Part shown: positions 3,041 to 41,304 of the stretch, in pieces | How positions within the stretch are numbered: the stretch's first letter is position 1 | Layout: each line of letters begins with the position of its first letter | Assembly (NCBI RefSeq): GCF_003113895.1 | Contig: NZ_BDUD01000001.1 | Span: 2,205,093-2,269,092, forward strand | Source of the DNA: Nostoc commune NIES-4072 | GTDB lineage: Bacteria > Cyanobacteriota > Cyanobacteriia > Cyanobacteriales > Nostocaceae | Direction of reading: 5' to 3' | DNA: 64,000 bases | Notes under the pieces: model-generated | Database searches by the model: none | Told to the model about the DNA's origin: nothing | What the model saw: only the letters and a program-made list of their open reading frames with translations | Made by a program: the position numbers and the translations under genes

Positions 3041-6000
3041 TTATAAATTTTGTTCACCTGATTGAGATGAAACTCCGCTTTCCTTGATTGCTGTTCGATG
3101 TTCTTTTCTGGCTTGTTTTCGACGCTGTAATGAAGCTGTCCTACCTTCAGAAAAATGAGAATGTTTGATAAAAGATGTTTCTTTTCTTGCTTCTTGAATA
3201 AAATATCTGGCTAGGTGGCTGATGGTTGGATATTGAAACATTTCTACCAACAGAAAATCTCTTTGAAATGTTTTTTGCAATTTACTATGAACTTGAACTA
3301 AAAGCAACGAATGACCACCGAGTTGAAAGAAGTTATCATGGATTCCTACGTTCTCAACATTAAGTACTTCTTGCCAAATATCGGCAATAGTTTTTTCGAC
3401 CTCAGTTTGCGGTGGCTGGTAAACTGTTTCCAATTGGGGGCGTGTTGTATCAGGTGCAGGTAGTGCAAAGCGATCAACTTTTCCATTTGGTGTTAGTGGT
3501 AGTGCCTCCAGTGTGATAAAAGCTGTTGGCATCATGTAGTTTGGTAACTTTGACTCTAAAAAGTTACGTAGTTCAGGAATTGTCATTGTTTGCTCTCTTT
3601 GAGCAACTACGTAGGCGACTATTCGTTGAGAGTTTGCTGAAGCTTCGCTGACTACAACTACAGTTTCTCGTATTGCTGGATGTTGGCTAATAATTGCCTC
3701 AATTTCTCCCAATTCAATCCTAAAACCACGTACTTTTACTTGGTTATCAATGCGACCTAAATACTCAATGTCTCCATTTGGTAAATATCGAGCTAAATCG
3801 CCGGATTTATAAAGAAGCGCATTGGGTTTATTACTAAAGCAATTAGGAATAAATCTTTCAGAAGTTAGTGTTGGTCGGTTTAAATAACCCCTGGTCACAC
3901 CAGCACCACCAATATACATTTCACCTGGTACTCCTATGGGTACTGGCTGCCTATATCTATCTAGTAAATAAACTTGTAAGTCACCAATTGGACGACCTAT
4001 TAAACTTGCTGATGCTACTTCTAAGTCTGCTATTTTTAATGGACGATATGTCACATGCACAGTAGTTTCCGTAATCCCGTACATGTTAATTAACTGTGGT
4101 GACTGGTCGCCATGACGTTCAAACCAAGGTCTTAAACTTTCAATTTGCAATGCTTCCCCACCAAAAATCACTTTTCGTAGGCTTAAATTGTTAGTATTTT
4201 CCAGGGATTGCTCTACCTGTATCAGTTGTCGGAAAGCAGAAGGCGTCTGATTAAGTATAGTAACTTGCTGTGTTAACAATAATTGATAGAACTTTTGAGG
4301 TGAACGGCTCAACCAATACGGTACTACCACTAATTTTCCACCATACAGCAATGCTCCCCAAATTTCCCAAACGGAAAAATCAAAGGCTATGGAGTGGAAC
4401 AGTGTCCAAACATCATGTCGGTTAAAGTTATACCAGTGTTCAGTTGCTGCTAACAAACGAACAACGTTGCTGTGATTGACTAAGACGCCTTTGGGTTGAC
4501 CTGTTGAGCCAGAGGTGTAGATGATGTAAGCTAGGTTATCAGTCGTACATTCACTAATTGGGTTTTGTGAGCTTTGTTGAGCTACAATTTCACAATCTGT
4601 ATCTAGATAAACAACCCTAGTTTGATGTTGTGGCAAATTCTCTATCAGCTGCTGCTGTGTTAGTAATACTGATACAGCAGCATCTTGCAATATAAAGGCT
4701 AAACGTTCTGGTGGATATGCTGGATCTAACGGTACGTATGCACCACCTGCTTTGAGGATGGCTAATAGTCCGATGAGCATAGAGAGCGATCGCTCTACAC
4801 AAATCCCTACCAATACCTCTGGTTTTACTCCTAGCTTTTGCAAATAGTGAGCTAGTTGATTCGCTCGGTTGTTCAACTCGCGGTAGGTTAGTTGATCGTT
4901 TTCAAAGACGACTGCGATCGCATCAGGTGTTTTCTGTACCTGTGCTTCAAACAATTCATGGATACATTGCTGTTGAGTATACTCAACTTTTGTGTCATTC
5001 CACTCTCGCAGCAATTGATGCTGCTCAGGTTCTGTTAGTAATGATAATTCTAAAAGTCGTAGCTTCGGTTTTGCAACAATCTTTTTAAGCAATGTCTGGA
5101 AATGTCCAGCCATCCGTTTTATAGTAGTTTCCTCGAATAAATCTGTATTAAACTCCAGATTAGTAAAAAGCTTTTCTGGTGTTTCTATTATTTCTAAAGT
5201 CAAATCAAACTTGGCACTACCATTATCAATTGCCAAGGGACTTACAGTCAAACCAGGCAATTCTAAAATAGGCATTGGTGTGTTCTGAAGTACAAACATC
5301 ACCTGAAATACTGGTGTGTAACTCAAGTTCCGTTGTGGTTGTAGTTCTTCTACTAGTTGCTCAAAAGGTAAATCCTGATGGGCGTAGCCTCCTAATGCTA
5401 CTTTCCGCACACGAGTTAGTAACTCCTCAAAGGTAGGATTACCCGCTAGATTAGTTCGCAATGCAATTGTATTGGCAAAAAGACCAATTAATCCTTCTAA
5501 CTCTGTGCGATCGCGGTTAGCGATCGGTGAACCAACAACAATATCTTCACTACCAGTATAACGACATAGCAATATTTTAAAAGCTGCCAGCAGAGTCATA
5601 AATAAGGTAGTTCCATGCTGCTGGCTTAATTTATTTAAAGCTATATGTAACTCATCGGATAACTCAAATGAATAGGTAGAACCCTGAAAACTGCTAATGG
5701 CAGGTCGTGGTTTGTCAGTGGATAGCTCTAATAATTCTGGTGCGCCCTCTAACTGCTGTTTCCAATAGGATAGTTGTGATTTTAAGACTTCTCCTTGTAG
5801 TTGTTGTCGTTGGAAGCTTGCAAAGTCTACATACTGTATTGGTAGTTGAGCAAGTGGAGACGGTTGCCCTTTAGAAAAAGCTTCATAAAGTGCCGTAACT
5901 TCTTTAATTAGTACTCCCATTGACCAACCGTCGGAAATAATATGATGCATGGTGAACACCAGAATGTGTTCTGTTTCTTTTAGTCGTAGTAAAGTAGCTC

Positions 6001-6439
6001 GCAGTAATGGAGCTTGGCTCAAATTGAAGGGTCGCTGTATTTCTTGTATAACTAACTTCTTAATTTCAACTTCTTGCTTAACCTCAGTTAACTCTTCCAG
6101 ATTTATGGTAGGTAAACTTAAACTTATATTTGGAAGAATTACCTGAACAGGTTTTTCTTCCATAGTTGCGAAAGTAGTTCGCAAAACTTCGTGGCGACGC
6201 ACGATTGTATCAAAGGTTTGTAATAGTGCAGATTTACGAAGGAAACCAGTAAGACGTAAAGCTGTCCATATATGATTAGCAAAATTACCAGGCTGCAATT
6301 GCTCTATAAACCAAAGTCTTTGTTGAGCAAAAGATATTGGGAAAATGTGAGGCTTTTCGACCTTTTCTTGAAGTAGTTTTGCCAAAAGCTCCCGTTTATT
6401 TTGTGATGAAACTTCATTAATATCATGAGTATTGCTCAT
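3041..6439 (-). CDS. NRPS module C-A(Thr)-PCP
   Basis: This is one full elongation module of 1132 residues. The C domain (about 35-450) has the intact HHIISDGWS motif near residue 166. The A domain (about 475-1000) has YTSGSTGQPKG near 643. The PCP (1005-1075) has the carrier serine in LGGHSLLL near 1042. There is no thioesterase. Aligned to the GrsA pocket by eye, the specificity residues read D-F-W-N-I-G-M-V-H, the classical threonine code. The ATG at 6439 overlaps the stop of the upstream PKS by 4 bases (ATGA), so translation is coupled. A basic, charged tail (about 1080-1132, RRKQARKEHR) follows the PCP and may dock to the next PKS. The C domain should condense Thr with the chain delivered by the PKS at 6436-11178. 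Domain calls are firm; Thr is a strong prediction. Confidence 0.95.
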   Translation of the reverse strand: MSNTHDINEVSSQNKRELLAKLLQEKVEKPHIFPISFAQQRLWFIEQLQPGNFANHIWTALRLTGFLRKSALLQTFDTIVRRHEVLRTTFATMEEKPVQVILPNISLSLPTINLEELTEVKQEVEIKKLVIQEIQRPFNLSQAPLLRATLLRLKETEHILVFTMHHIISDGWSMGVLIKEVTALYEAFSKGQPSPLAQLPIQYVDFASFQRQQLQGEVLKSQLSYWKQQLEGAPELLELSTDKPRPAISSFQGSTYSFELSDELHIALNKLSQQHGTTLFMTLLAAFKILLCRYTGSEDIVVGSPIANRDRTELEGLIGLFANTIALRTNLAGNPTFEELLTRVRKVALGGYAHQDLPFEQLVEELQPQRNLSYTPVFQVMFVLQNTPMPILELPGLTVSPLAIDNGSAKFDLTLEIIETPEKLFTNLEFNTDLFEETTIKRMAGHFQTLLKKIVAKPKLRLLELSLLTEPEQHQLLREWNDTKVEYTQQQCIHELFEAQVQKTPDAIAVVFENDQLTYRELNNRANQLAHYLQKLGVKPEVLVGICVERSLSMLIGLLAILKAGGAYVPLDPAYPPERLAFILQDAAVSVLLTQQQLIENLPQHQTRVVYLDTDCEIVAQQSSQNPISECTTDNLAYIIYTSGSTGQPKGVLVNHSNVVRLLAATEHWYNFNRHDVWTLFHSIAFDFSVWEIWGALLYGGKLVVVPYWLSRSPQKFYQLLLTQQVTILNQTPSAFRQLIQVEQSLENTNNLSLRKVIFGGEALQIESLRPWFERHGDQSPQLINMYGITETTVHVTYRPLKIADLEVASASLIGRPIGDLQVYLLDRYRQPVPIGVPGEMYIGGAGVTRGYLNRPTLTSERFIPNCFSNKPNALLYKSGDLARYLPNGDIEYLGRIDNQVKVRGFRIELGEIEAIISQHPAIRETVVVVSEASANSQRIVAYVVAQREQTMTIPELRNFLESKLPNYMMPTAFITLEALPLTPNGKVDRFALPAPDTTRPQLETVYQPPQTEVEKTIADIWQEVLNVENVGIHDNFFQLGGHSLLLVQVHSKLQKTFQRDFLLVEMFQYPTISHLARYFIQEARKETSFIKHSHFSEGRTASLQRRKQARKEHRTAIKESGVSSQSGEQNL

Positions 6440-9400
6440 TGAACAGCCCCTTCAGATTGCAACATATTATTAAGTAATAGCTCAACTTCTCGATCTGAAA
6501 GTTTATTTATATTTGCTAATGTCTGTTGTTCATTACTCCGCTCAATTCTTTCTATCATTTTGAAGTTAAACTTTTCTTCTAAATTCCGCTTCTTTTCATC
6601 AACTATTAAGGCTTGTTCCATGACAGTGGGTGCTTCAAAAAAACCATGCAGAGAGAGTTGTACTTGAAACTCTTGACGCAATCGAGAGAAAACTTGAGTA
6701 GCTAATAATGAATCTCCTCCTAATTCAAAAAAATTATCATAAATACCTATCTGTTTAATCCCCAGCAGATTTTGCCAGACTTCAGCAATAGTTGCTTCAA
6801 CTTCATTTCGGGGAGCAACATAATCATTACGTAGATTAGGACGGGGATGCCTTAGTTGAGAGAGGCTTGTTGAAGCTGATTTATCTTCTAACAATGCTAA
6901 TCCCTCTTCCAGATACTTAAATGAATTATCCTGTTCAATTACTGCTTTAAAATCTTGCGGGGAGACAACAACATGAGACAAGCTACTTAGCAAAATGCGA
7001 TTAAAAGCTTCGGCACCTTCTTGAGATAATATTCCTTTTTTGAGATTCTCTTCCCGTTGGAGTTTTAATTGCTCTGGTAGTGCTGTCTCTACTGCCATGC
7101 CTACTTCTTGCCAAGTACCCCAATTGATTGCCACCGTAAATTGGTCAGATTTAGAAGTACGATAATGTGCATAAACATCTAGAAACGCATTTGCTGCACA
7201 ATAATCAACCTGCCCAAATTCATTTAATATAGAACTTTGCGATGAACAAAGCACTAAAAAATCTAATTTAATATTTTGTAAGTTTAGAATCTCCTCTAAT
7301 ACTAATGTGCCCTTAACTTTTGGCGCTAATACACTGTTTGCTAAATCCTGTGTTTTTAGTTGAATTATGCCACCACCAGCAATACCTGCTGCATGGATGA
7401 CACCATTGATTTGACCAAATTTCTCTAAAGCTTCAGCAACGGCTACCTGCATTTGTTCGTAGTTGGCTACATCGGCACTTTTAACCTCGACCTCTGACCC
7501 CAACTCTTCCAACACGAGCATTTTTTGGATCTTGCGGCTAACACTATCTTCACTATCATGAGTTTCTAGCCATTGCTTCCACTGCGATCGCTCCGGTAAT
7601 CCTTTTCTTCCAATTAAAACTAACTTAGCTTGTACTGTCTTTGCTAAATATTCCGCTAACACCAAACCTATACCGCCAAGTCCACCAGTAATTAAGTAAA
7701 CTCCTCTTTCCTTTAACTTAGTTTTACCTAGAGTGCTTTCATGCAGATGGACAGCTTCAAAGGTTTGAATCCAGCGATGAGATCCTCGATAAGCAACTAG
7801 ATTATCGGTTTGCTGTGTTGTCAATTCCGTAATCAAATAGTCAATAAACTTTTGTGTTAGCGGAATGTTATCAGCAGTAATTACTACATCGATAATACAA
7901 GAACTAATGTTTGGGTATTCTTTGGGAATTATCTTACACGGCCCCAATATAGTTGCCTTCTCTGGGCATAGCTTTTCATCACCAATGACATTATATAAAT
8001 TGTTCGTTACAACCCTTAACTTAAGAGAATCACTGATATTTTCTTTTCCTAATGCCTGTGTAAAATACAATAAACTCCAAAAACCGAGATTATGGTAATC
8101 TTCAAAAGTTTGTTTTTTGAACTTATTGTTAGATAAAGTATTATTTGGCGTAATGCTCCAAAAGTGAGCTACTCCATTTGGAATTAAAGTATCTTTTCGG
8201 AGTTCTTGAAGTAAGGTATTATAGTCATCACTTTGGCGTGGGTTAATGCTATATGTGCATTCGTTCAGCTTAGTAAACTTATCTGCAACCCTAACTGTAA
8301 CAACATAATTTTGCTGTTTGAGCCGTTTAGCAACTTCCCCTCCAATTCCATATTCATCTATAAAAACTAACCAGCAGGTGTTTTGCTCGGTTACTAATTC
8401 TTTCCCTTGGAAAAACTCAAGTGGTGTAGATTGTTTCCATATTGGGATATAAAACCAATCGGCAATATCTGGCTTTTTCCCTATTGATGGTTGCCACGCC
8501 TTTGATAACGTAGTTTCGGGGTCAGCTTCAATCCAGTAACGCTGACGTTCAAAAGGATAGGTAGGCAAAGGAATATGTCTGCGTTGCTCTTTTGCATAAA
8601 AGCCTGTCCAGTTTATTTGCAATCCTGATAGCCAAAGCCGAGAGAGAGTATTAAGCAAAAATGCTACATCAGAAATTTGCTCTTGGGGATGTCGTAACGA
8701 AGTTAGCATTACAGCCTGTGAAACCAACTGTCGTTTGGCTAGGGTAGTTAATGTTTGTCCTGGCCCAACTTCCAATAGGGTTCGTGGTTGTTGCAGCAAT
8801 TCAGCGATTCCCTCGTTAAACAATACGGGTTGTTGTAGGTGTCTAGCCCAGTAGTCAGGATTGATCGCCTGATCTGCCCTAATCCAAGTTCCAGTAACGC
8901 TAGAAACAAAAGGAATTTGAGGTGGTTTCAGGTTGACTTCCCTAAGATGCCGTACAAATGGCTCTAAAATCGGCTCCATCATCTCGGAATGAAAAGCATG
9001 AGATGTATGCAGGCGGCGACAGTCAACACCCTGCTCCGTCAAACGATTTTGTAATAGTGCGATCGCACCAATACCACCAGAAACCACACAAAGGGATGGT
9101 GCATTGCTAGCTGCTAAAGAAAGTTCTGAACCCAACATAGGTTGTATTTCTTCAGCAGAGAGAGAAACGGAAAGCATCGACCCTGGTTCGACTTGTTGCA
9201 TCAGTCGTCCGCGAGTTACGACTAAAGTCAAGGCTTCTTCTAAAGAAAAGACACCTGAAATACAAGCGGCTACATACTCACCGATGCTATGACCAATCAT
9301 CGCTTGCGGATGGACACCCCACGCCATCCAAAGTTTAGCAAGGGCATATTCAATTACAAATAGCGCAATTTGCGTTAAGGAAGTTTGTTTAAGTTGTTCT

Positions 9401-11178
9401 TCTGTAGTTTCTACCGTGGAGGGATAAAGTATATCTTTGAGGTCTAACTTTAAATGTGATTTCAGCAATTCACAGCAATCATCAATTTGTTGCTGAAAAG
9501 CTGGTTCTGTTTCATATAAATCTCGCCCCATGTTTACATACTGCGCTCCTTGTCCGGGAAACATAAACACAATTGAATGGTTACGAGTTTCTGAAAAATT
9601 GCTTAAAACTCTTTCTTGCTTTGGCGCGGTTAGTATTTTTATAGCATCTGAAATATCCTGACATAGGAATACTCGACGATGATTAAAACTTCGGCGACCA
9701 ACTTGCAAAGTATAAGCTACATCAGCAAGATTGCTATCAGGATGGTGTGCTAAATAGTTGGTAAGGTTAGTTGTAGCAGATTCTAAAGCTGTTTGAGTTT
9801 TTGCAGAGAGAATTAACAACTGCCAGGAGCGAGAAACACTCTCTTCGGGTGTAAAAACTGGAGCTTCTTCTAAAATTACATGGGCATTAGTCCCACCAAT
9901 GCCAAAAGAACTTACACCTGCTCGACGTGGTATACCGTTAGTTTTCCACTCTGATAATTTGTTATTGACATAAAAGGGGCTATTGGCGAAATCAATTTGA
10001 GGATTTGGTTCTTCAAAGTGCAGGATAGGAGGAATTTGTTTGTGTTTGAGAGCTAATACTGTTTTAATTAAACCTGCAACACCAGCAGCTGCATCTAAAT
10101 GCCCAATATTTGTTTTTAATGAACCAATTGCACAAAAGTTTTTCTTTTTTGTACTGTTTTGGAATGCTTGCGTTAGGGCTGCAATTTCAATTGGATCTCC
10201 TAAAGATGTTCCCGTCCCGTGAGCTTCAATATAAGTTATTGTTTCTGCTTCTACCTCTGCAACCAGTTGAGCCGTTTTGATAACTTTAGCTTGACCTTCT
10301 ATGTGGGGTGCTGTGTAGCTAACTTTGTTTGAGCCATCGTTATTTATCGCCGAACCTTTAATTACAGCATGGATAAAATCTCCATCATTTAAAGTATCTT
10401 CTAATCTTTTCAAAACAACGATTCCTGCGCCTTCTCCAGCTACTGTTCCCTGTGCTTTAACATCAAAAGCGCGGCAGTGTCCATCAGGAGAACTAATACC
10501 TCCCTCTTGATAAATATAGCCAGCTTTTCTTGATGCACTGATGGAAACACCACCAACCAAAGCTATATCACATTCTCCGTTGAGCAAACTTTGGCAGGCT
10601 AAATGTACAGCTACTAATGAGGTTGAGCAAGCTGTTTGAACTGTATAGCTAGGGCCTGTTAAATTAAGTTTGTAAGAAGTACGTGTAGCAAGGTAATCTT
10701 TATCGGCAGCGATCGCTATTTGTTGTTCATCTACTAAGTTTCTAATATTTTGATTAAAATAAATATTTAGTAAATAACCGCTTAAATTAGAACCAGCAAA
10801 AACACCTATAGAACCATTGTAGGTTTCGGAATTATACCCGGCTGTTTCCAGCGCTTCCCAAGCACACTCTAAAAAAATCCGGTGTTGGGGGTCAGTCATT
10901 TCTGCATCTCTGGGATTAAAACCAAAAAATTCAGCATCAAAAAGTTCTGCATCTTCTATGACAGCATTTCTCTTAACATAGTTGGGATTACTAAGAAGTG
11001 CTGCATCTACTCCTGCTTCCAATAGTTCTTCATCACTAAAAACAGAAATTGACTCTATACCATTTTGGAGATTATGCCAAAATTCATCAACATTTTTAGC
11101 TCCAGGGAATCTTCCTGATAATCCAATAATTGCTATTTCTGAACCGTTAGTAGTATATGCACCAGTTGGAATATTCAT
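6436..11178 (-). CDS. Type I PKS module KS-AT(malonyl)-KR-ACP
   Basis: This 1580-residue module extends the chain from the Asp module by two carbons. The KS (10-430) has C184 in ACSTS, H320 in EAHGTGT and H360 in NIGHL. The AT (535-840) has the nucleophile S631 in GHSIGEY and the HAFH signature (727-730) typical of malonyl-CoA selection. After a structural subdomain, the KR (about 1158-1350) has the NADPH loop GGLGGIG (1165-1171), the active-site serine in CSSQSS, Y1326 and N1330. The ACP (1455-1525) carries S1490 in LGGDSLL. There are no DH, ER or MT domains, so a beta-hydroxy unit is expected. Following beta-hydroxy-Asp it would give a statine-like gamma-amino-beta-hydroxy acid. The start codon is ATG at 11178, 14 bases downstream of the previous stop. 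The KR lacks an obvious LDD motif, so alcohol stereochemistry is not assigned. Confidence 0.95.
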   Translation of the reverse strand: MNIPTGAYTTNGSEIAIIGLSGRFPGAKNVDEFWHNLQNGIESISVFSDEELLEAGVDAALLSNPNYVKRNAVIEDAELFDAEFFGFNPRDAEMTDPQHRIFLECAWEALETAGYNSETYNGSIGVFAGSNLSGYLLNIYFNQNIRNLVDEQQIAIAADKDYLATRTSYKLNLTGPSYTVQTACSTSLVAVHLACQSLLNGECDIALVGGVSISASRKAGYIYQEGGISSPDGHCRAFDVKAQGTVAGEGAGIVVLKRLEDTLNDGDFIHAVIKGSAINNDGSNKVSYTAPHIEGQAKVIKTAQLVAEVEAETITYIEAHGTGTSLGDPIEIAALTQAFQNSTKKKNFCAIGSLKTNIGHLDAAAGVAGLIKTVLALKHKQIPPILHFEEPNPQIDFANSPFYVNNKLSEWKTNGIPRRAGVSSFGIGGTNAHVILEEAPVFTPEESVSRSWQLLILSAKTQTALESATTNLTNYLAHHPDSNLADVAYTLQVGRRSFNHRRVFLCQDISDAIKILTAPKQERVLSNFSETRNHSIVFMFPGQGAQYVNMGRDLYETEPAFQQQIDDCCELLKSHLKLDLKDILYPSTVETTEEQLKQTSLTQIALFVIEYALAKLWMAWGVHPQAMIGHSIGEYVAACISGVFSLEEALTLVVTRGRLMQQVEPGSMLSVSLSAEEIQPMLGSELSLAASNAPSLCVVSGGIGAIALLQNRLTEQGVDCRRLHTSHAFHSEMMEPILEPFVRHLREVNLKPPQIPFVSSVTGTWIRADQAINPDYWARHLQQPVLFNEGIAELLQQPRTLLEVGPGQTLTTLAKRQLVSQAVMLTSLRHPQEQISDVAFLLNTLSRLWLSGLQINWTGFYAKEQRRHIPLPTYPFERQRYWIEADPETTLSKAWQPSIGKKPDIADWFYIPIWKQSTPLEFFQGKELVTEQNTCWLVFIDEYGIGGEVAKRLKQQNYVVTVRVADKFTKLNECTYSINPRQSDDYNTLLQELRKDTLIPNGVAHFWSITPNNTLSNNKFKKQTFEDYHNLGFWSLLYFTQALGKENISDSLKLRVVTNNLYNVIGDEKLCPEKATILGPCKIIPKEYPNISSCIIDVVITADNIPLTQKFIDYLITELTTQQTDNLVAYRGSHRWIQTFEAVHLHESTLGKTKLKERGVYLITGGLGGIGLVLAEYLAKTVQAKLVLIGRKGLPERSQWKQWLETHDSEDSVSRKIQKMLVLEELGSEVEVKSADVANYEQMQVAVAEALEKFGQINGVIHAAGIAGGGIIQLKTQDLANSVLAPKVKGTLVLEEILNLQNIKLDFLVLCSSQSSILNEFGQVDYCAANAFLDVYAHYRTSKSDQFTVAINWGTWQEVGMAVETALPEQLKLQREENLKKGILSQEGAEAFNRILLSSLSHVVVSPQDFKAVIEQDNSFKYLEEGLALLEDKSASTSLSQLRHPRPNLRNDYVAPRNEVEATIAEVWQNLLGIKQIGIYDNFFELGGDSLLATQVFSRLRQEFQVQLSLHGFFEAPTVMEQALIVDEKKRNLEEKFNFKMIERIERSNEQQTLANINKLSDREVELLLNNMLQSEGAVQ

Positions 11179-11192
11179 TATTTATTAATTCC

Positions 11193-14100
11193 TTAATTAT
11201 TTTCAACTGATTTAATTTTTTGGAGACGTTTTCTTTGTTGCGCCTTCCCAGATGAGATTTTTTCTGCTTGAGTATCATTTTCCTGTAAAAATTCTGTGGG
11301 ATTAGGAGATGAATTTAAATAGTTGGCTAAAGAATTAATCGTGGGATATCTAAATAAATCCAGGGTTGATAGTTCTACTTTTAAAATTTCCTGCAATTGG
11401 CTGTGAACCGTAACTAAAAGTAATGAATGACCGCCAATTTCAAAAAAATTATCGTGAATGCCTATTTTTTCAAGATTCAAAGCTTTTTGCCAAACAGAGG
11501 CTATTGTCTTTTCTACCTCAGTTTGCGGTATCACATAAGTAACTTCTAATTCTGGGCGTAGAACATCGGGCATTGGCAATGCTTGACGGTCTACTTTGCC
11601 ATTAGATGTTAATGGTAATGCCTCTAATATCATAAAGGCAGTGGGTAGCGCATGGTCAAGCAATTTATTCTGCAAGAAGCGTCGCAGTTCAGGAGTTGTT
11701 AATGTTTTATCTGGCTGGAGAGTTATATAAGCTATTAAAATTTGATTTCCAGATTTATCCTTCTGAAGGATAACTACACTTGTCGATATTGATGGATGTT
11801 GATTGATAACCGTTTCAATTTCTCCTAGTTCAACACGGAAACCACGTATTTTAACTTGGTTATCGATGCGACCGATATACTCAATATCTCCACTTGGTAA
11901 AAACCGTACTAAATCACCTGTTTTGTAAAGGCGATCGCCTTTTTGTTTACTAAAGGGATTAGGGATAAACTTCAGGGCTGTTAATTCAGGTTGATTTAGA
12001 TAACCTCTGGCTAATCCAAGTCCACCAATATGCAATTCACCTGGTACTCCCATTGGCACTGGTTGCAAATATTGGTCTAAAATGTACAACTGGGTATTAG
12101 CGATCGCCTTTCCAATGGGTATGGAACCTGTAGAATGTTTCCCGACTGGAACCTGATAAACACAGCAGCCTACTACTGTCTCTGTGGGGCCATATTCGTT
12201 TATTAATATTGTATCTGGAGCTACATCTTGCCAGAAGGTAATGCTTTGGGCTAATAAGTTTTCGCCACCAATAATAAAAGCTCTCGTTTTATTTGCTATC
12301 TCTTCTTTAGATAACTGTTGCTTCAGCAAATCTAAGTGAGCAGGGGTAATTTTCACCAAACTTAAATTTGAACTTTTCTTTAAAGCTTGAGAAAGGCTTT
12401 CAATCCCTTGTTTTTCTGATAGTAATTCTACTGCGCCACCGACTAATAAAGGTGAGAAAAGACTGGTGATTGTTAAGTCAAAACCTAGAGATGAGTGGAC
12501 TAAAGTTCCTACTCCTTGCTCTACTGCATATCTTTGAGTAGCCCAACTTAGGTAGTTAACTAATCCTTGATGGGGGATTAGAGTTCCTTTAGGTTTACCA
12601 GTGGAACCGGAGGTGTAAATAATATATGCTAAATTTAATTCGTTTATTGTAGCAATTGGATTTTCATTTTTTTGTTGGTTTATATCCCAATCACTATCTA
12701 TACAAATTACTTTAATTCCATTCGTAGCTAAATCTACCATTAAATGCTGTTGAGTCAGCAGCACTGGCATTTTAGAATCGTTTAAGATAAAAGCTTTTCT
12801 TTCTAAGGGATAGCTAGGGTCAATCGGTACATAAGCACCACCTGCTTTTAAGATGCCTAAAAGTGCAATCAACATTAAAGGCGATCGCTCAACACAAAGC
12901 CCCACCATTACATCTGGCTTAACGCCTAATTTTTGTAAGTAATGAGCTAGCTGATTAGCACGAGTGTTTAATTCTTGGTAGGTAAACTGCTGATTTTGAT
13001 AAATAATAGCAATGTTTTCTGGCGTGCGATCGCACTGCTGTTCAAACCAATGGTGGATGCACTTGTATTGTAGTTCTGCTGTTTTAGTATTATTGAATGC
13101 AACTAAGAGTTCTTCCCGCTCTTGTTCGCTGAAGATATCTAATCGTGATATCGCTGTAGAGGGATTGTTTATAACACTGATTAACAAAGTTTGCCACTGA
13201 TTTGCCAAACGTTGAATATCTTCTTTATGGAAAAGTTTTTCATCATAGTGAAATTCTGCTTTGACTAAATTATTTTGTGTACGAACACAAGAAAGCCTTA
13301 CCTTAAATCGGTCAAAGCATACGTAATGCTGATGAAATGAAAATGATACTTGAGGGGCATAGTAATTAGTTACCGCTTCTTCAAAATCAAAACAAAATGG
13401 TAAATACGAATGTTCTATACCATTTCCATTTATTTTAGGAAATGCATCCCAGCTAAAACCATCCTGCCATTCAAGTATTTCTTCTGCTAAGTTATTAACC
13501 TGTATCAAAGTATTACTGAATGTATCATTTTCTTGCAGATGACAAGCGAGGGGTAAATATTTGGCAAATAAACCTAGTGCTGCTTTTAATTCTTTATAAT
13601 TGCGACCATCACAACCTAGACCTGTAATTAAGTTTGATTGCCCAGTAATACGCCAAAGTAAAATTTGCCAGCAAGTAAGGAAAAATATATCTATTGAAAT
13701 TTGAGATTTTTGGACAATTTCTTCAATTTTAATGAGTAAGTCGCTGTGAATTGCTAACGTAATAACTTGAGGTTCAAATTCTGATTCTTCAGAAAGCCGA
13801 TTCTCAAAAGGAAGCTCTAAGGTATCCAGAGGCGAAAAATCTACTTGCTGCCAATATTTTATCCTTGTTGCAGTCTCCTCTGCTTCAAGTAATTCATTTT
13901 GCCATGTAGCCACATCAGCATATTGTAGTGGTTCTTCAGTTATTTCTGCATTCTGCAAACAGACAGTGTAATATTGACTAATTTCATTAACTATATTTTT
14001 TAATGTTTTATAGTCAGCACACAGAGATGGTAAGTTTATAAATAAAAAGTATTTTTTGGATGAGCAAATTACCAATTCTACTTTTAATAATTGACTTGAC

Positions 14101-14438
14101 GCTAATTTTACAGACTCTTCCTTTATTTTATTAAAAAGTGCTTTTATTTCTTCCGTTTGAGAAGATTGATTTTCTAAAGTATGCTCGGCTATAAATATGT
14201 CTTTGTTAGTATTTATAACCTGAATAGGTATTTTTAAACCACGTGGGCGATGAAAACTTGTGCGAAGAATCTCATTTCTAGCAATAACTTTTTCTAACGC
14301 TTCTTTCAGGATTTTTATTTCTATATCTCCTTCAATAAGGATAGCACATTGACTCCGATATAAATTACTATCTTGCTGTAGTAACCAAAGGTGCTTTTGT
14401 TGAGGAGATAGTGGAAAACCTTGAATTATCTGTTGCAT
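11193..14438 (-). CDS. NRPS module with degenerate condensation-like (interface-type) domain, A(Asp/Asn) and PCP
   Basis: The first ~430 residues have the condensation fold (FPLSPQQKHLW; LGLFAKYLPL near the end), but the catalytic HHxxxDG position reads LPSLCAD, so both histidines and the aspartate are lost. This is what is known for 'interface' domains, which sit before Asp-activating A domains in beta-hydroxyaspartate siderophore synthetases and work with a stand-alone hydroxylase. The A domain (450-950) has pocket residues D-L-T-K-I-G-E-V-G, in the Asp/Asn group. The PCP serine is in IGGHSLLL near residue 1003, followed by a basic tail (QQRKRLQKIK). The ATG at 14438 is preferred to an in-frame TTG four codons earlier. 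The hydroxylase gene lies directly upstream. The upstream NRPS ends in an unpaired, active C domain that can supply the missing condensation. The code cannot separate Asp from Asn; the hydroxylase context favours Asp. Confidence 0.92.
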   Translation of the reverse strand: MQQIIQGFPLSPQQKHLWLLQQDSNLYRSQCAILIEGDIEIKILKEALEKVIARNEILRTSFHRPRGLKIPIQVINTNKDIFIAEHTLENQSSQTEEIKALFNKIKEESVKLASSQLLKVELVICSSKKYFLFINLPSLCADYKTLKNIVNEISQYYTVCLQNAEITEEPLQYADVATWQNELLEAEETATRIKYWQQVDFSPLDTLELPFENRLSEESEFEPQVITLAIHSDLLIKIEEIVQKSQISIDIFFLTCWQILLWRITGQSNLITGLGCDGRNYKELKAALGLFAKYLPLACHLQENDTFSNTLIQVNNLAEEILEWQDGFSWDAFPKINGNGIEHSYLPFCFDFEEAVTNYYAPQVSFSFHQHYVCFDRFKVRLSCVRTQNNLVKAEFHYDEKLFHKEDIQRLANQWQTLLISVINNPSTAISRLDIFSEQEREELLVAFNNTKTAELQYKCIHHWFEQQCDRTPENIAIIYQNQQFTYQELNTRANQLAHYLQKLGVKPDVMVGLCVERSPLMLIALLGILKAGGAYVPIDPSYPLERKAFILNDSKMPVLLTQQHLMVDLATNGIKVICIDSDWDINQQKNENPIATINELNLAYIIYTSGSTGKPKGTLIPHQGLVNYLSWATQRYAVEQGVGTLVHSSLGFDLTITSLFSPLLVGGAVELLSEKQGIESLSQALKKSSNLSLVKITPAHLDLLKQQLSKEEIANKTRAFIIGGENLLAQSITFWQDVAPDTILINEYGPTETVVGCCVYQVPVGKHSTGSIPIGKAIANTQLYILDQYLQPVPMGVPGELHIGGLGLARGYLNQPELTALKFIPNPFSKQKGDRLYKTGDLVRFLPSGDIEYIGRIDNQVKIRGFRVELGEIETVINQHPSISTSVVILQKDKSGNQILIAYITLQPDKTLTTPELRRFLQNKLLDHALPTAFMILEALPLTSNGKVDRQALPMPDVLRPELEVTYVIPQTEVEKTIASVWQKALNLEKIGIHDNFFEIGGHSLLLVTVHSQLQEILKVELSTLDLFRYPTINSLANYLNSSPNPTEFLQENDTQAEKISSGKAQQRKRLQKIKSVENN

Positions 14439-14521
14439 TTTATGTCTCAATTACAATTTAAAAGTTAGTCAAAAATTTTCACAAATTCTAATAGATAATC
14501 ATCAGCTAAAAATTAACTATC

Positions 14522-15565
14522 TCAAGTTTGACTAAAACTTATCAGTTCGCTCATCGCAACAAAAAGCTTACGTTCTCCCACATAAGGATTGCGCCCATGA
14601 GCAGTTAAGATGTTGTCCAGTAATAATATGTCTCCTTGTTGCCAAGAAAAACATATTTCTAGCCTTTGATATACTCCACAGATATCAAGCATTGTAGAGT
14701 CTTCAATGGGAGTGCCATCACCGTAAAAGCAATTTCGTGGCAAATCTTCTTTTTTAAAAGATGACAGTAGCGACTCACGGGTTTGTGCATTTAAACAAGC
14801 TAAATGCCAATGTTGTGCTTGATTAAACCAAGAAAATTCACCTGTTTGAGGATGCTTGATTACAGCTGGGCGAATAGAAATAGTTTTCAATCCACCACCT
14901 TTTTTCCATTCAAAGTCAATTAAATTGTTTTGACAAAACTTCTCTACATCTGCTCTACTTTGAGTTTGAAAAACCGTTTGCCAGTCAAGCCCTAATCCGT
15001 TTCCGTAATTACGAACATACATAACTTGCTTTTCAACAAATTGTTCCCTAATTTTAGGTTCTATGAGTTGAAACACTTTACGACTATCAACTATTGGCGT
15101 TTCTCCTCCTTGCTGTGCAGGTTGACGGCAGCCAAACAAAATTTTTGCAGGCCACTGATGATTAAAAGAATTCTCGTTATGCCACAATAACTTGCTATCC
15201 GCAGGATAAAAAACTGGAGTATAAACTTTACCAGTTACTGTTTCACGGGTATGTTCACCATTTTCATTGAATAGTTCTGAGCAAACCGCTAAACCAAACC
15301 TTTCAAATGCGGTTGTTGTAGTAATATTAAATCCTTTAAAAAGTATAGCACCATATTTAATTAAATTGGCATCTATAAATTCTTTATTTGCCTCCGCCCA
15401 ATCTGCGATATCAACATCTGATATTGATGGTTTTATAATTAACGGTAGTTGCTGATTTTCAAAATTATCTAGTTTAATTAGTTCGGTTTCTAAACTGATA
15501 GATTTTCTTCCACCTTTGGGGAATTTATGCTGTAAGTTAGAGTCGCCTATTTTTACTTGTTTCAT
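14522..15565 (-). CDS. SyrP/TauD-like Fe(II)/2-oxoglutarate hydroxylase, probable aspartyl beta-hydroxylase
   Basis: A 347-residue protein of the TauD/TfdA clan. The iron-binding facial triad is visible as H129 and E131 in LLWHNENSF and H323 in LTAHGRNPY, with R332 in GERKLF as the likely 2-oxoglutarate anchor. HxE rather than HxD is typical of the SyrP-like enzymes that hydroxylate PCP-bound aspartate. The ATG at 15565 is chosen over an in-frame TTG at 15577 because GAGGA lies 5 bases upstream of it. The gene begins 8 bases after the preceding NRPS stop and precedes the Asp module, which carries an interface-like domain. The inferred reaction is trans beta-hydroxylation of the Asp tethered to that PCP, creating an alpha-hydroxycarboxylate iron ligand. 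Stereochemistry is not predictable by eye. The same fold also serves other amino-acid hydroxylases, but the context is strong. Confidence 0.9.
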   Translation of the reverse strand: MKQVKIGDSNLQHKFPKGGRKSISLETELIKLDNFENQQLPLIIKPSISDVDIADWAEANKEFIDANLIKYGAILFKGFNITTTTAFERFGLAVCSELFNENGEHTRETVTGKVYTPVFYPADSKLLWHNENSFNHQWPAKILFGCRQPAQQGGETPIVDSRKVFQLIEPKIREQFVEKQVMYVRNYGNGLGLDWQTVFQTQSRADVEKFCQNNLIDFEWKKGGGLKTISIRPAVIKHPQTGEFSWFNQAQHWHLACLNAQTRESLLSSFKKEDLPRNCFYGDGTPIEDSTMLDICGVYQRLEICFSWQQGDILLLDNILTAHGRNPYVGERKLFVAMSELISFSQT

Positions 15566-15573
15566 TTTATTCC

Positions 15574-18500
15574 TCAACTTTCAGTTACAACAATGTCAAT
15601 TGCTTTTCGCTTAATCACACTTAACTTTTGTTGATATTTCTCTTTTCGCTTTTCTTCTTGATTTAACTGATGTTCTTTGTCTGATTTGTTGATAATTTCT
15701 TCTATCTCACTTAATTTGATGGCAGGATCTACAACAATTTGAGACAAAATTGTTTCAAAGCTATTTAGTAATCTAGCTATGCTATTTGCATCAAATAAGT
15801 CTTTGTTATATTTTAATGACCCAACTATTCCTTGCTCTGTATCTGTTAGTTCCAGCAGTAGATCGAATCTAGCGATCGCATTTTCTAAATCATCTAAACG
15901 AGTCAATGTTAAATCTGAAAGCTCTAAAGGATGTATGGGAGCATTTTGAAGGAGAAACTTGACTTGAAATAGAGGAGTTTGGTTTAAATCTCTTTTGGGA
16001 TTAAGAGCGCTAACTAGCTTCTCAAATGGTAAATCTTGGTGAGCATAAGCTTCTAGACAAACTTTACGTACTTGTTGTAAATATTCGCGAAAACTGGGAT
16101 TACCAAATAGGTTACTACGTAATACTAATTGATTAACAAAAAAACCAATTAAATTTTCTGTTTCAATTCTATTACGATTGGCAATATCGGTACCAACAAC
16201 AATATCTTTGTCGCCTGTATACCAATACATTAAAACATTAAATGCTCCAAGTAGCGTCATAAATAATGTCATTCCAAGACTATTACTTAGCTTCTTAATT
16301 GCTTGTGATAATGTCTTAGAAACTCTCAAAGTTTGCCGCTTCTCCTGAGAGCTTTTAAGTTCTGAAGTTTGACGAATTTTAGGTAATTGCAAAACTGGTA
16401 AGTTGTCTCCTAATTGCTTTTCCCAGTATGTAAGTAAGGTATCAAGTACTTCACCCTGTAACCAGCTTCTTTGCCAAGTAGCAAAGTCTGCATACTGGAT
16501 ATTCATCTCTGTAAGTGGTGAAGGTTTACCACTAGAAAACGCTTCGTAAAGCGCTGACAATTCTCGGATAAAAACTCCTTCTGACCACGCATCGGAAATA
16601 ATATGGTGCATCGTCACCAACAATATATACTCTTTAGTTTTTAATCGTAAAAGAGTTAAGCGTAATAAAGGAGGTTGAGTTAAATCAAATGGTTTTTGGT
16701 AATCTGCTAATCTTAATCTTTCTACTTCTATTTTTTGTTCAGTGTCAGGTAGATTTTGCAAGTCTACTATTTGCAAGGGTATATCTAAAATAGGAGTAAT
16801 AATTTGGACTGGTTGACCATTTGAAATCTGGAAAGAAGTTCGTAATATTTCATGCCTTTGCACTATTTCATTAATAGTTAGCTCTAAAGCTGTTAAGTTA
16901 AGTGAACCTTGTAGTAGTACTGCGCTAGAACCATTATAAATACGTGAATTTGGATTTAATTGATGCAGAAACCATAATCTGTTTTGTGCAAAAGATAAGG
17001 GTAATTCTGTCTCTCGTGAAACCCGTTCAAGTAATATATTAGAATTAGCTGATAGCTTTTTAGACTCGATAATTTTGGCTATTTTTGCAATCGATGGTAA
17101 TTCAAAAAATTGGCGGAGTGGTAAGTCTACATCAAATATTTTATTAATGCGGGATGTAATTTGGGTTGCTAAGAGTGAGTGTCCACCCAATTCAAAAAAG
17201 TTGTCGTTTATGCCGATTTTTTCTAAACCAAGTACTTGCATCCAGATAATCGCTAACTGTTTTTCAACAAGCGTCTGAGGAGCAACAAAGGTTTCTTCAA
17301 ATTCTGGACGTATTGTATCAAGTGTGGATAATGCTTTGCGATCAACCTTACCATTAGGCGTGAGCGGTAGTGCCTCTAATATTACAAAAGCCCCTGGCAT
17401 CATGTAGCTTGGCAACTTTGATTCCAAAAAGCTTCGTAGTTCAGAAATTGCCAGTGTTTGCTCAATTTGAGGAACTAGATATGCGACTATTATTTGAGAA
17501 TCTCCCAAATCATTGTGTACTACAGCTATAGTTTCTCGAACTGTAGGGTGCTGGCTGATTACTGCTTCAATTTCTCCTAGTTCAATGCGAAAACCACGGA
17601 TTTTTACTTGCTGGTCAATGCGACCAATGTACTCGATTTCTCCATTTGGTAAATAGCAAGCTAAATCCCCCGTTTTATAAAGACGCGCAGCTTTTTTACT
17701 GAAAGGATTGGGGATAAATTTTTCTGCTGTCAAATCAGGACGGTTAAAATAGCCTCGTGCGAGTCCCTCCCCACCTATATGCAATTCTCCTGCTACACCT
17801 ACAGGAACTAACTGGCTGTGTTGGTCTAGAATGTAAAGTTGCGTATTAGCGATCGCACCACTAATCGGTACAATAGTACTATCACTTTCTACCTGAGATG
17901 CTGCTGACCAAATCGTGGTTTCTGTCGGGCCGTACATATTCCACAAAGAGGCACACCGATACAATAATTGATTAGCTAATTGTCCAGGTAAAGCTTCTCC
18001 ACCACAGAGAATTTTTAATTGCTTATTGCCACTCCAGCCTGCTGCTAGAAGTAATTGCCAAGTCGCTGGTGTGGCTTGCATAACTGTAGCTTTTGAGTCT
18101 ATCAGTTTTGCTGACAACTGCGTTCCATCTGAGGCAACTTCCCGACTAGCGATTACTAAACAACCACCAACTATGATTGGCAGAAAAAGTTCCAGCGCCG
18201 CAATATCAAAGGAATATGTTGTTACCGCTAGTAAGGTATCTTCATGGGTTAACCCTGGTGTTTGCCTCATGGAGTACAAAAAGTTGCTCAAAGCATTGTG
18301 GGGAATTTGTACACCTTTTGGTTTACCTGTTGAACCAGAGGTATAGATGACATAAGCTAGATTGTCAGTAGTTAGCTCAGATAATAAATTTTTCTTGCTC
18401 TGTTGTGCAATGTTGTGCCAATGTGCATCTAAACAAACAACTTGAGCTTTATGTTGCGGCATTGTTTCCACAAGGGAAGATTGAGTTAGCAGCACTGAAA

Positions 18501-21500
18501 TTTGGGCGTCTTCTAATATAAATGCCAATCGCTCTTGAGGATAACTAGGGTCTAGTGGTATATATGCTCCACCTGCTTTGAGGATAGCTAATAATCCAAT
18601 GACCATAGAGAGCGATCGCTCTACACAAATCCCCACCAATACCTCTGGTTTAACCCATAAAGCTTGCAAATGATGCCCTAGTTGATTTGCTCTGCTGTTC
18701 AGTTCTTGATAAGTAAGTTGTTCTTCCTCAAATACCACCGCCACAGCATCGGGTGTTTTTTCTACTTGCGCTTCAAATAACTGATGAATGCATAGGTGTT
18801 GAGGATACTCAACCTCCGTATCATTCCACTCAAACATTAATTGGCGTCGCTCAGATTCTGTCAACAGTGGTAGCTCCGACAAACGCTGCTTTGAATTAGC
18901 AACAATTCCTTCAAGCAACGTTTGCAAATGCGCTACCATTTCTTGTATAAAACTCTCCTTAAATAAATCAGTATTGTATTCTAAATTACCTAATAAACCA
19001 TCAACTGTTTCAGTTATATATAAGGTCAAATCCAACTTGGCAGTATGACTATTGCTTTCTAAAATGCTTAAAGTTAAACCAGGCAACTCTAAAGCAGACA
19101 TCGGCGTATTCTGAAGTACAAACATCACTTGAAATAGTGGTGTATGACTCAAGTCTCGCTGTGGTTGCAGTTCTTCAACTAACAACTCAAAAGGTAAATC
19201 CTGGTGTGCATAAGCTCCTAAAGCTACTTCTCGCACCCGTTTGAGTAACTCTTCAAAGCTAGGATTTCCTGCGAAGTTAGTCCGCAGTACTAAAGTATTG
19301 ACAAAAAATCCAATTAGCCCTTCTATCTCTGCTCGGTTGCGGTTAGCGATGGGCGAACCAACCACAATATCTTCGCTACCTGTGTAACGCCATAGCAATG
19401 TTTGAAAAGCTGCTAACAGGGTCATAAATAAGGTGCTTCCCTGTTGCTGGCTGAATTTGTTTAAAGCAAAAGAGAGTTTATCAGATAGGTTGAATGAGTA
19501 AGTCGAGCCTCGGAAAGTCTGAATTGCTGGTCTGGGATAATCAGTAGGTAACTCTAAGACTTTTGGCGCGTTCTTTAACTGCTTGAGCCAGTAAGATGTC
19601 TGAGTTTTGAGTACTTCTTTTTGCAACCATTGTCGTTGCCAAGCCGCAAAGTCTACATACTGTATTGGTAGTTCAGGTAAGGGTGAGGGTTGTCCATTAC
19701 AGAAAGCTTGATAAAGTGTTGCTAACTCCCTCACAAGTATATCTATTGACCAACCGTCAGAGACGATGTGGTGCATTGTCAATAATATTATGTGTTCTTC
19801 TTGACCAAGACGTAATAATTTCACTCTCAGTAGCAAGTCGCCGTTGAGATCAAAAGGTTTCTGTGCTTCTTGAAAAGCCTGTTTTTTGACTTCGGCTTCT
19901 TGTTGATTTAAAGGTAGCTCGCTAATATCGAATATTGGTAATGTTAATGACATTACCTCATGGATGACAGCGATCGCTTCCCCTTCTATTGTTTGAAAAT
20001 TGGTTCGCAGGACTTCATGGCGGCTGATAATTTCGTTAAAACTTTGTTGTAGTGCCTCTACATTCAATTGTCCCTCTAGGCGAACAGCAGCAGGCATATT
20101 GTAGAAGGAACTATTTGGCTCTAATTGGGCCAAAAACCATAACCGTTGTTGAGCATAAGATAGCGGTAACTCTGGCGATCGCACAATCTGCTCAATATTC
20201 GTTACCTCATCTGCTGAGTCTACCTTAATCGCTTTTTCAATTTCTTTTGCTAGCCCAGCTATTGTTGGTTTTTCAAATAAATAACGTAAAGGAAGCTCTA
20301 CTTTAAACACTTGCCGGATTCGGGAAATTACGCGAGTGGCGATTAATGAATGACCACCTAATTCAAAGAAATTATTATCAATACCTATTTTTTCAATACC
20401 AAGTACTTCTATCCAAATACCCGCTAATAAATCCTCAATTGGTGTGGAAGGAAGAATAATATTCGATGATGATATCTGTGTTAATTGAGGAATAGGTAGC
20501 GCTTTCCGGTCAACCTTACCATTAGGTGTAACTGGGAGTGCCTCTAACATGACAAAAGCTCCTGGTATCATGTAGCTTGGCAAATTTGACTCTAAAAAGC
20601 CACGTAATTGAGAAATTGTCAGTGTTTGTTCTTTTTGAAGAACTACATAAGCAACTAAACGCTTAGAATCTTCTGATTCACCCACAACAACTACAGTTTC
20701 TTGGACTGCTGGGTGTTGATTGATGACTGCTTCAATTTCTGCCAATTCAATGCGAAAACCACGGACTTTTACTTGATGGTCAATGCGACCAATGTACTCA
20801 ATCTCTCCATCCACTAAATAGCGTGCTAAGTCTCCTGTTTTGTACAACCTTTCCCCTGGCTGCTTCGCGTAGGGATTGGGAATAAATTTATCCGCAGTCA
20901 GTTCAGGTTGATTTAAATAACCACGAGCTAAACCTGCACCGCTAATATACAACATACCAGGTACGCCTACAGGAACAGGTTGGTAATTTTTATCTAATAA
21001 ATAAATCTGGGTATTATGAATCGGACGACCAATAGGTGGCGTGTTGTTAGTACCTTTTTGTATCCAGGCAAAGGTTGAATAAGTTGTATCTTCAGAAGGG
21101 CCATACAAGTTAAAGACTTGTTGTATATTCTCCTGTCGATAAAGTTCTTGTACGAGTTGATTATGAAGCGGTTCACCCGCGATATTAACAGTTTGCACTG
21201 AAGTTGGAATGCCATCAGTTCTTAGTAACTGTGAAATCACGCTTGGAACAGTATTAATTAAGGTTACATTCTCGGATGTTGCCAAGGCTGGTAAATATAG
21301 TGCATTCTCAATTAACAGAACCTTACCACCACAACATAGGGGAACAAATATCTCGAACACCGAAAGGTCAAAGCAAATCGAAGTTGATGCTAAAACTCCT
21401 TTTTTCGCTTGCATCTCAAAGGTTTTGTTTGCCCAATCTAACATTGCAACTGTGCTAGCGTGTTTAATCATTACACCTTTGGGTCTGCCTGTGGAACCAG

Positions 21501-23382: not shown

Positions 23383-23383
23383 C

Positions 23384-31983: not shown

Positions 31984-33015
31984 ATGATCAAAGCGGCGAT
32001 AGTGTCACCGAAACGATTGAAAAAGCCACAAATATCGGCTTTTTTTGGTCTGGCTTTGGCAGTGTGTATGCTGCTTATTTGCTTGGTGTACAGTGTGACG
32101 CTAGGTGCAGCAGAAATACCTTTAGACAAGATTTTTACATCTTTTATAGCCTTTGATGGTTCCTACGATCACTTAGTCATTCAGACAGTAAGATTACCGC
32201 GATCGCTAATTGCTATTTTTGTAGGTTCAGCCCTTGCTGTATCGGGAGCATTGATGCAGGGTTTGACACGAAACCCCTTAGCAGATCCAGGTATTTTGGG
32301 TATTGAGTCGGGAGCCGCCCTCTTTGTAGTTGTGGCAACTTTTGTTTTTGGCAGTTCATCCCTAAGTATTTACGCTCTTGTGGCCTTTTTGGGTGCGGGA
32401 GTAACAGCAGTGTTAGTTTACATCCTTGGTTCTCTGGGACGAGGAGGAGCTACCCCACTGAATTTGACAATAGCGGGAGCGGCGTTGACTGCTCTAATTT
32501 CTTCCTTCACCACCGGTATCCTCATTGTTAGTCAACAAACACTCGAACAAGTGAGATTTTGGTTAGCTGGTTCATTATCTGGTCGAGATTTTAATTTATT
32601 CTTGCAACTACTGCCTTTTGTCAGCATGGGATTAGTTATAGCTTTTGCCCTCGGCAGACAAATTACCACTATGAGTTTAGGTGAAGATATCGCTAAAGGT
32701 TTGGGGCAACAGACAGCTTGGATCAAAATATTTACCGCTATCAGCGTAGTTTTACTAGCAGGAAGTTCCGTTGCCCTTGCAGGGCCAATCGGCTTCATTG
32801 GTTTAGTCGTTCCCCATATAGTGAGATTTTACATTAAAGCCGATTATCGTTGGATATTACCTTATTGTGCAGTTTTGGGAGCAATTTTACTTTTAGTTGC
32901 AGATATTGCTGCCCGTGTATTGCTCAAACCACAGGAGTTACCTGTGGGTGTAATGACAGCAATAGTTGGCGCTCCTTTTTTTGTCTACCTGGTTAAATCA
33001 AAGGTGAAAAAATGA
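31984..33015 (+). CDS. FecCD-family iron-siderophore ABC permease 1
   Basis: A 343-residue inner-membrane permease with about nine to ten hydrophobic segments. Family hallmarks are [45 protein letters not shown] and the coupling-helix region [15 protein letters not shown]. The end ([20 protein letters not shown]) is also typical. The ATG at 31984 is preceded by TAGGATAG. It overlaps the next permease by 4 bases. Together they form the channel for the ferri-siderophore delivered by the binding lipoprotein at 37210-38187. Confidence 0.95.
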
Positions 33016-34052: not shown

Positions 34053-34070
34053 AGCTGGGAAATATCACTT

Positions 34071-38187: not shown

Positions 38188-38234
38188 CAGAGGAATAATG
38201 ACAGGATTTGCAGACGAATGTGCAAGCACATTCC

Positions 38235-41257: not shown

Positions 41258-41304
41258 TGATCCGCTTACACTCAATCACACTACTTAGTCGTACCCGAAG
41301 ACAC

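Follow-up and report, generated by a model that had tools for sequence, protein, structure and literature searches.

Organization of the locus

The stretch of DNA analyzed here (the window) is 64,000 nucleotides long (contig NZ_BDUD01000001.1, positions 2,205,093 to 2,269,092) and comes from the 8.2 Mb genome of Nostoc commune NIES-4072. Its minus strand carries a nonribosomal peptide synthetase (NRPS) and polyketide synthase (PKS) cluster, and the subject of this study is one module of that cluster, which opens with a condensation-family domain without its motif histidines and stands beside a separate hydroxylase gene. The gene order on this strand is FAAL-ACP-C-A-PCP-E, C-A-PCP-C-A-PCP-C, hydroxylase, I-A-PCP, KS-AT-KR-ACP, C-A-PCP and a pyridoxal phosphate (PLP) decarboxylase, in which C, A, PCP, E and I denote condensation, adenylation, peptidyl carrier, epimerization and interface-type domains.

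Three neighboring proteins, all encoded on the minus strand, make up the system. The upstream NRPS (NRPS2) ends in a C domain (15670..17013, residues 2165-2612) with the intact motif HHIISDA, followed by a Lys/Arg-rich C-terminal tail (15574..15669) that resembles the linker of fused C-hydroxylase proteins as well as the N-terminus of the hydroxylase. The next gene encodes a stand-alone hydroxylase of the TauD/TfdA Fe(II)/2-oxoglutarate type (14522..15565). The I-A-PCP protein then consists of the interface-type domain (13104..14426), an A domain with the code DLTKIGEVGK (11586..13052) and a PCP (11313..11510), the predicted seat of the hydroxylated residue. The initial annotation had proposed that the interface-type domain opens its own protein and that the upstream NRPS must supply a terminal C domain. 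This agreed with the intact HHIISDA at the end of NRPS2 and with the arrangement that prevails among relatives; this C domain is likely the donor of condensation activity to the I-A-PCP module.

The interface-type domain

The I-A-PCP protein was read from an open reading frame (ORF) at 11193-14450, whose TTG start is mechanical; the probable start codon is an ATG at 14438. This ATG lies only four residues ahead of the domain by our own profile and seven by Pfam, so no docking domain is expected in front of it. Pfam recognized Condensation (PF00668, residues 12-449, 196.8 bits), AMP-binding, AMP-binding_C and PP-binding in the protein, and the interface-type domain was delimited to ORF residues 9-449. 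When it was aligned with the other C domains of the window, the HHxxxDG columns read PSLCADY (14010..14030, ORF residues 141-147), with both histidines gone and the aspartate retained, as the initial annotation had noticed from the string LPSLCAD. The five C domains and the E domain of the window all retain HHxxxD. A structure predicted for the full-length protein (mean predicted local distance difference test score 77.8) matched C-A-PCP modules best, with the C-A-PCP module of McyA2 as the top match (E 5e-83); this model and that of the hydroxylase informed on folds only.

The relationship of the domain to other condensation-family domains was analyzed with two trees, in which the LCL, DCL, E and cyclization labels were inferred from position and not from a reference set. 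In the 110-row tree, 31 interface domains grouped together with a support of 93, separately from the remaining C-family domains, and four other rows without HHxxxD were placed outside this group. The 71-row tree placed 30 interface domains, 19 from cyanobacteria and 11 from proteobacteria, on the opposite side of a branch from 41 C-family domains, with a Shimodaira-Hasegawa-like approximate likelihood ratio test (SH-aLRT) value of 94. In line with the initial annotation, the domain thus did not cluster with active LCL or DCL domains. It belongs to the condensation family, has lost HHxxxDG, falls into a tree group of its own and precedes an A domain beside a TauD hydroxylase, the features of an interface domain.

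The hydroxylase and its clade

The hydroxylase ORF spans 14522-15577, with a likely ATG at 15565. TauD was the only Pfam family found in it (140.7 bits), and the predicted iron ligands of the HxE...H type, H133-N-E135 and H327, were invariant in an alignment of 84 rows, in keeping with the TauD-fold protein with HNE...H that had been described for this gene. Its closest solved structure was 1y0z (25% identical), and a search at E <= 0.001 gave one such hydroxylase match in the genome. The label "SyrP-like" given to it at first holds at the family level (TauD), and no closer kinship is claimed, SyrP being outside our tree.

In a hydroxylase tree of 99 rows, the window's enzyme fell into a clade of 31 members (SH-aLRT 100), all of them stand-alone. 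The partner A domains of this clade had Asn-type codes in 30 cases, one code was unread and none was of the Asp type. The sister clade, joined at 99, held 29 Asp-type rows, three proteobacterial rows and one unread row, and its enzymes were mostly fused to a C domain. The enzyme therefore nests among NRPS-linked enzymes coded for Asp or Asn, which answers half of what the initial annotation required, the tree having held no enzymes acting on free substrates.

Residues 138 (F vs H), 257 (W vs H) and 196 (G vs D) split the window's clade (30 of 30) from the fused Asp-coded rows (29 of 29) and were considered as specificity markers. They were dropped, a point to which we return below, because other Asp- and Asn-coded groups did not follow them: ten stand-alone Asp-coded rows had Y138 and F257 with residue 196 divided between D (six) and G (four), and six other Asn-coded rows had Y138. 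According to PMC12628792, which cites Reitz, fused hydroxylases give the S and stand-alone ones the R configuration at the beta carbon (papers are cited here by PubMed Central identifier, for the portions of their text available to us). Gene fusion was likewise dropped as a guide to stereochemistry, and no configuration at the beta carbon is claimed, because the window's enzyme, although stand-alone, has fused enzymes in its sister clade.

Conservation of the gene order

The arrangement was compared across 90 cyanobacterial hydroxylase copies. They came from the window itself, from five named plasmid records and from a hand-picked sample of 80 loci among the matches listed in a family search, of which 79 were used (the eightieth was a duplicate). 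L008 and L067 were regarded as identical to the L002 plasmid and left out before counting, and domains of 380 residues or fewer were excluded from the motif alignment. A C domain precedes the hydroxylase in 89 of the 90 copies, the other having none in the stretch, and the N-terminal C-like domain of a next protein follows it in 89, with one copy lacking it. All 89 preceding C domains kept HHxxxD. The second histidine was lost in every one of the 88 aligned following domains and both histidines in 87 (L100 keeps the first), the motif aspartate was retained in all 88, and the signature was mostly P/S-A/S-L/I/M-C-A-D; only the Vibrio comparator retained HH in this position. Together with the trees, this conserved layout supports the earlier pairing of an interface-type domain with a hydroxylase acting in trans.

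The hydroxylase was fused to the preceding C domain in 34 of the 90 copies and to the following C-like domain in none. The 90 copies thus offered no natural hydroxylase-interface fusion that could be folded as a single chain, and the five relatives that hold both have the order I-A-T-C-OX. By text pattern, the best 120 of 985 relatives of the interface protein all open with such a domain. Two proteins (P0143 and P0144) have the order I-A-PCP-C-hydroxylase, with an A domain reading NEYGPTE (Asn type) and a C-terminal hydroxylase with the HNESSH motif of the fused Asp group, so that a single polypeptide appears to connect an Asn module with the Asp module after it.

Named genomes were scanned with a fused sequence as query and the best 80 loci were kept, so the share of fused copies among them is biased. 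These loci were nearly all from Pseudomonadota by title, with one titled Mycobacterium. The hydroxylase was fused to a C domain in 72 of their 99 copies, and in 70 of these 72 it is followed by a C-like domain that lacks HHxxxD by text pattern, to which L154 was added as the 71st by alignment. A second kind of stand-alone hydroxylase was also seen in Proteobacteria, including Vibrio harveyi (L137, L139, L185, L188, L193, L204, L205 and L007); it precedes a C domain with HHIAGDF, HHISGDF or HHIAGDY and an Asp-type A domain, with no interface domain between.

Substrate code and siderophore setting

The A domain of the window has an asparagine-type code, with Glu at GrsA position 322, and so the Asp-type partner A domain of the siderophore aspartyl beta-hydroxylases (IBH_Asp, CyanoBH_Asp1/2) is not what is found here. 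The code that follows the fused hydroxylase in the cyanochelin B cluster is DLTKIGHVGK. Among the 34 cyanobacterial fused copies, the codes were H-type in 29, E-type in four and unread in one. Among the 56 stand-alone copies, 32 were E-type, ten were H-type, eight read DSALIAEVWK, one was of another type and five were unread. His322 was present in all 60 readable fused copies of the named-genome loci, a further 12 being unread. Asn-type codes also occur elsewhere on the hydroxylase tree (L126-L129, L005 and L108), and the change to the Asn type therefore probably occurred more than once.

The initial annotation had the module making beta-hydroxy-aspartate. Because the A code and the hydroxylase clade both indicate asparagine, beta-hydroxy-asparagine is the likelier residue, although such codes can admit Asp; beta-hydroxy-aspartate was set aside as the first choice and is kept as the main rival. 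The earlier reading was likely right in kind and wrong in substrate. DLTKIGEVGK is also described as compatible with cyano-alanine, derived from Asn, in the Asp/Asn section of PMC12283262, while DLTKVGHVGK is a beta-hydroxy-Asp code in PMC10391617 and DLTKIGHV was matched to the Asp module of surfactin (PMC3207962). The eight DSALIAEVWK copies are stand-alone hydroxylase/interface pairs (L091, L092, L094, L096, L097, L098, L104 and L107) that form one clade with one unread row. We take this code to be that for His, which suggests that these pairs may give beta-hydroxy-histidine.

Siderophore transport genes lie near the hydroxylase in the window, and a TonB receptor over the family cut-off was found within 60 kb on the same contig for at least 27 of the 31 clade copies. 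The remaining copies comprised one with a weak split TonB match and three on contigs shorter than 52 kb without one. A second, more distant hydroxylase lies within 60 kb in at least 12 of the 31 clade clusters; five of these second pairs were typed (three Asp-coded, two His-coded), a sixth had no readable code and six were untyped. With a single hydroxylase in the window's genome, this cluster would hold beta-hydroxy-Asn without beta-hydroxy-Asp.

Co-variation of the hydroxylase with its neighbors

Distances were compared over 82 loci, with L003 and L007 excluded. Hydroxylase distances correlated at r 0.69 with interface-domain distances and at 0.68 with A-domain distances, and less with those of the upstream C domain (0.36); the corresponding partial correlations were 0.43, 0.43 and 0.13. 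None of 500 permutations reached the hydroxylase-interface correlation. In the window's clade (30 loci) the values were 0.84 for the interface domain, 0.88 for the A domain and 0.60 for the upstream C domain. In the 28 fused Asp loci the hydroxylase correlated with the C domain at 0.71 and with the interface domain at 0.69, the former being expected since the two share one chain.

A Lys/Arg-rich linker joins the C domain and the hydroxylase in fused proteins. Where the hydroxylase stands alone, a comparable stretch lies at the end of the upstream protein and a further one at the start of the hydroxylase. These two stretches were compared in 53 pairs from the 56 stand-alone copies, the others having no such pair or failing the length filter. 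True pairs aligned with a mean score of 24.7, whereas stretches taken from different loci scored 23.2, shuffled ones 18.7 and tails of other proteins 17.0; 28 of 2000 re-pairings reached the mean of the true pairs. The two stretches thus have a motif in common, with true pairs resembling each other only slightly more, which suggests that the linker motif may have been doubled when the genes were separated or fused.

A candidate landing platform for asparagine hydroxylation

With a probability of about 60%, judged from sequence comparisons, the C-family domain without histidines serves as a landing platform for the hydroxylase, which would beta-hydroxylate asparagine on the carrier of this module in a predicted siderophore assembly line. 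The A domain would load Asn onto the PCP, the hydroxylase, docked on the interface domain, would add a hydroxyl group at the beta carbon of the carrier-bound Asn, and the terminal C domain of NRPS2 would join the Gly-ended chain to beta-hydroxy-Asn in trans. The KS-AT-KR-ACP module would then extend the chain. The L form of the residue is expected because no epimerase follows.

Several observations weigh against this reading, and those on the substrate lead to the alternative that the A domain loads Asp despite its code, as in cyanochelins, and that the pair makes beta-hydroxy-aspartate as an iron ligand. The siderophore transport genes adjoining the cluster favor beta-hydroxy-Asp, a proven ligand, and, with one such hydroxylase matched in the genome, a beta-hydroxy-Asn residue would not account for the main ligand. 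The cyanochelin B enzyme, whose product was identified as beta-hydroxy-Asp by nuclear magnetic resonance (NMR), belongs to the sister clade. E-type codes can admit Asp: DATKIGEVGK gave mixed Asn and Asp, with Asn favored, in tistrellabactin (PMC10391617), and DLTKVGHVGK was found in both Asp- and Asn-activating domains (PMC12283262). At residues 138, 257 and 196, whose failure as markers also counts here, the hydroxylase of Eleftheria terrae resembles the stand-alone Asp-coded group. However, Glu322 was present in all 30 readable clade members, as against His in all 29 readable cyanobacterial rows of the sister clade and in the readable fused copies of named genomes, and where a clade cluster holds a second hydroxylase, two codes in one cluster suggest two residues. 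We consider it rather unlikely that Asp is the residue loaded.

The other adverse points concern the role of the domain. The support for the interface branch (94) is just under the 95 mark, and an approximately unbiased (AU) test rejected the split (p 1e-8) while L154 was labelled by a stray HH; its motif columns read SPLVADR, and once it was relabelled as an interface domain the split of 30 vs 41 was recovered. By text pattern, the upstream C domain lacks HHxxxD in four of the 72 fused named-genome copies. Hydroxylase distances match those of the A domain no less closely than those of the interface domain, and slightly more closely in the window's own clade, which fits a partnership with the I-A pair and leaves the two undistinguished. 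It could therefore be argued that the hydroxylase recognizes the carrier or the A domain, and that the interface domain is a vestigial C domain acting as a structural spacer between subunits. The stretch read from E. terrae (L136), in which one C domain is cut and no interface-like domain without histidines was seen, points the same way, and TauD hydroxylation without an interface domain may thus occur. However, the motif signature recurs with its aspartate always kept, unlike random decay, and the domain makes up a distinct group spanning two phyla and opens all of the best 120 relatives of the protein, so that a vestigial spacer appears improbable. The retained C fold and motif aspartate would also suit a domain that is still active as an unusual condensation or modifying type (e.g. 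dehydrating or heterocyclizing), but both histidines are lost, the domain groups apart from C, E and putative cyclization-type domains, and a full C domain precedes it; this reading is very improbable indeed.

A wider proposal can be made, tentatively and at somewhat less than even odds: that cyanobacteria retuned the interface machine from Asp to Asn, and that a dedicated stand-alone lineage makes beta-hydroxy-Asn in siderophore clusters, as a ligand that would resist the light breakdown and iron release of the cyanochelin type. If the clade does make beta-hydroxy-Asn, a widespread group of siderophore clusters could be mispredicted by present genome-mining rules, which label cyanobacterial hydroxylases as Asp enzymes. 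Paired natural systems (Asn or Asp, stand-alone or fused, at times in one cluster) would suit tests of what interface domains recognize. More speculatively, a photoreactive ligand that also exists in a photostable form would be of consequence for how phototrophs share iron.

Comparison with known systems

Interface domains and their hydroxylases in siderophore NRPSs were reportedly described by Reitz et al. in 2019, and the window's membership of this known kind is not new. Both are cited in PMC12971057 and PMC12230676, two cyanobacterial Asp hydroxylase clades are named in PMC12971057, and antiSMASH 8 carries profiles for the domains and the hydroxylases. The window shares with these systems a C-family domain without histidines before an Asp, Asn or His A domain, an adjoining TauD hydroxylase, a siderophore setting and a tree group that includes proteobacterial examples. 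It differs in its Asn-coded A domain, whereas the fused named-genome relatives have the Asp-type His322. An interface-linked Asn lineage in siderophore clusters was not found in the available text of the open-access papers searched, which is weak evidence of absence, as the subscription literature lay largely outside the search.

The cyanochelin B synthetase of Leptolyngbya NIES-3755 (L004; PMC12628792) has the same order of C domain, hydroxylase and I-A-PCP, a PALCADT motif and a siderophore product. However, it pairs Asp modules with two beta-hydroxylases, a C-fused and a stand-alone one, whereas the window's genome has one, Asn-coded, and its DLTKIGHVGK module after the fused hydroxylase (taken as CcsI by place) corresponds to the residue shown by NMR to be beta-hydroxy-Asp (PMC12628792). 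The plasmid cluster of Nostoc sp. NIES-3756 (L002) is closer, with a stand-alone hydroxylase 72.6% identical to the window's, an Asn-type code and siderophore genes, but its donor C domain is a free-standing gene and it holds a second, fused, Asp-coded pair. In the potashchelin synthetase of Halomonas, the authors' module order C-TauD-C-A(Asp)-PCP matches that of the window, although the hydroxylase is fused and the residue is Asp; the term "interface" is absent from the available text of PMC7100376.

HynE (hypeptin), PflD (flavipulchrin) and the clovibactin enzyme are likewise TauD/TfdA enzymes that act, or are proposed to act, on assembly-line Asn, but in antibiotic or lipopeptide clusters and not siderophore ones (PMC12819058). 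HynE was absent from our tree, and the E. terrae enzyme, which sits on a long branch, did not fall into the window's clade of 31 rows. We take clovibactin to be the product of the E. terrae locus, and in the stretch of it that was read no interface-like domain without histidines was seen, one C domain there being cut. AsnO reportedly hydroxylates free Asn, a difference from the window's system. The likeness between them, by description and not by sequence, is that AsnO provides beta-hydroxy-Asn for an NRPS (CDA, A54145 and, through a homologue, rotihibin; PMC8552735).

The surrounding gene cluster

The loading protein FAAL-ACP-C-A-PCP-E lies at 23384..30070 (-) and is followed by NRPS2 (15574..23505, -), whose A domains have the codes DLFNNALTYK and DILQLGMIWK. 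The former is presumably a code for Ala, and the latter is a Gly code according to PMC12283262. Downstream of the I-A-PCP protein are the PKS module KS-AT-KR-ACP (6436..11178, -) and an NRPS C-A-PCP (3041..6439, -) with the code DFWNIGMVHK for Thr, DFWNIGMV having been matched to a Thr module in PMC3207962. Two FecCD permeases and an ABC ATPase for iron-siderophore uptake (31984..34892, +), a periplasmic iron-siderophore binding protein (37210..38229, -) and a TonB-dependent siderophore receptor (38435..41275, -; TIGR01783, 442.3 bits, over the cut-off) adjoin the cluster together with an ABC exporter. From these neighboring genes, the product is likely a siderophore, and the final product would probably be a lipopeptide-polyketide siderophore.

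Between the NRPS and PKS genes of the cluster lies a PanP-like PLP aspartate decarboxylase (1266-2972, -; TIGR03799, 623.6 bits, cut-off 606.1), which may supply a decarboxylated building block. The cluster extends past the start of the window (L009, G000:C1:2190093-2206500) with two PKS proteins, the first of which is partly inside the window, a methyltransferase, a C-A-PCP-TE protein and a P450. The C-A-PCP-TE protein has the odd code VDWIISLANK, which was read from an alignment and may be misread. Just beyond the siderophore transport genes, a DpdE helicase (NF041062, 1105.7 bits) is encoded at 42383-45688 (-), presumably a gene of the Dpd DNA-modification/restriction system.

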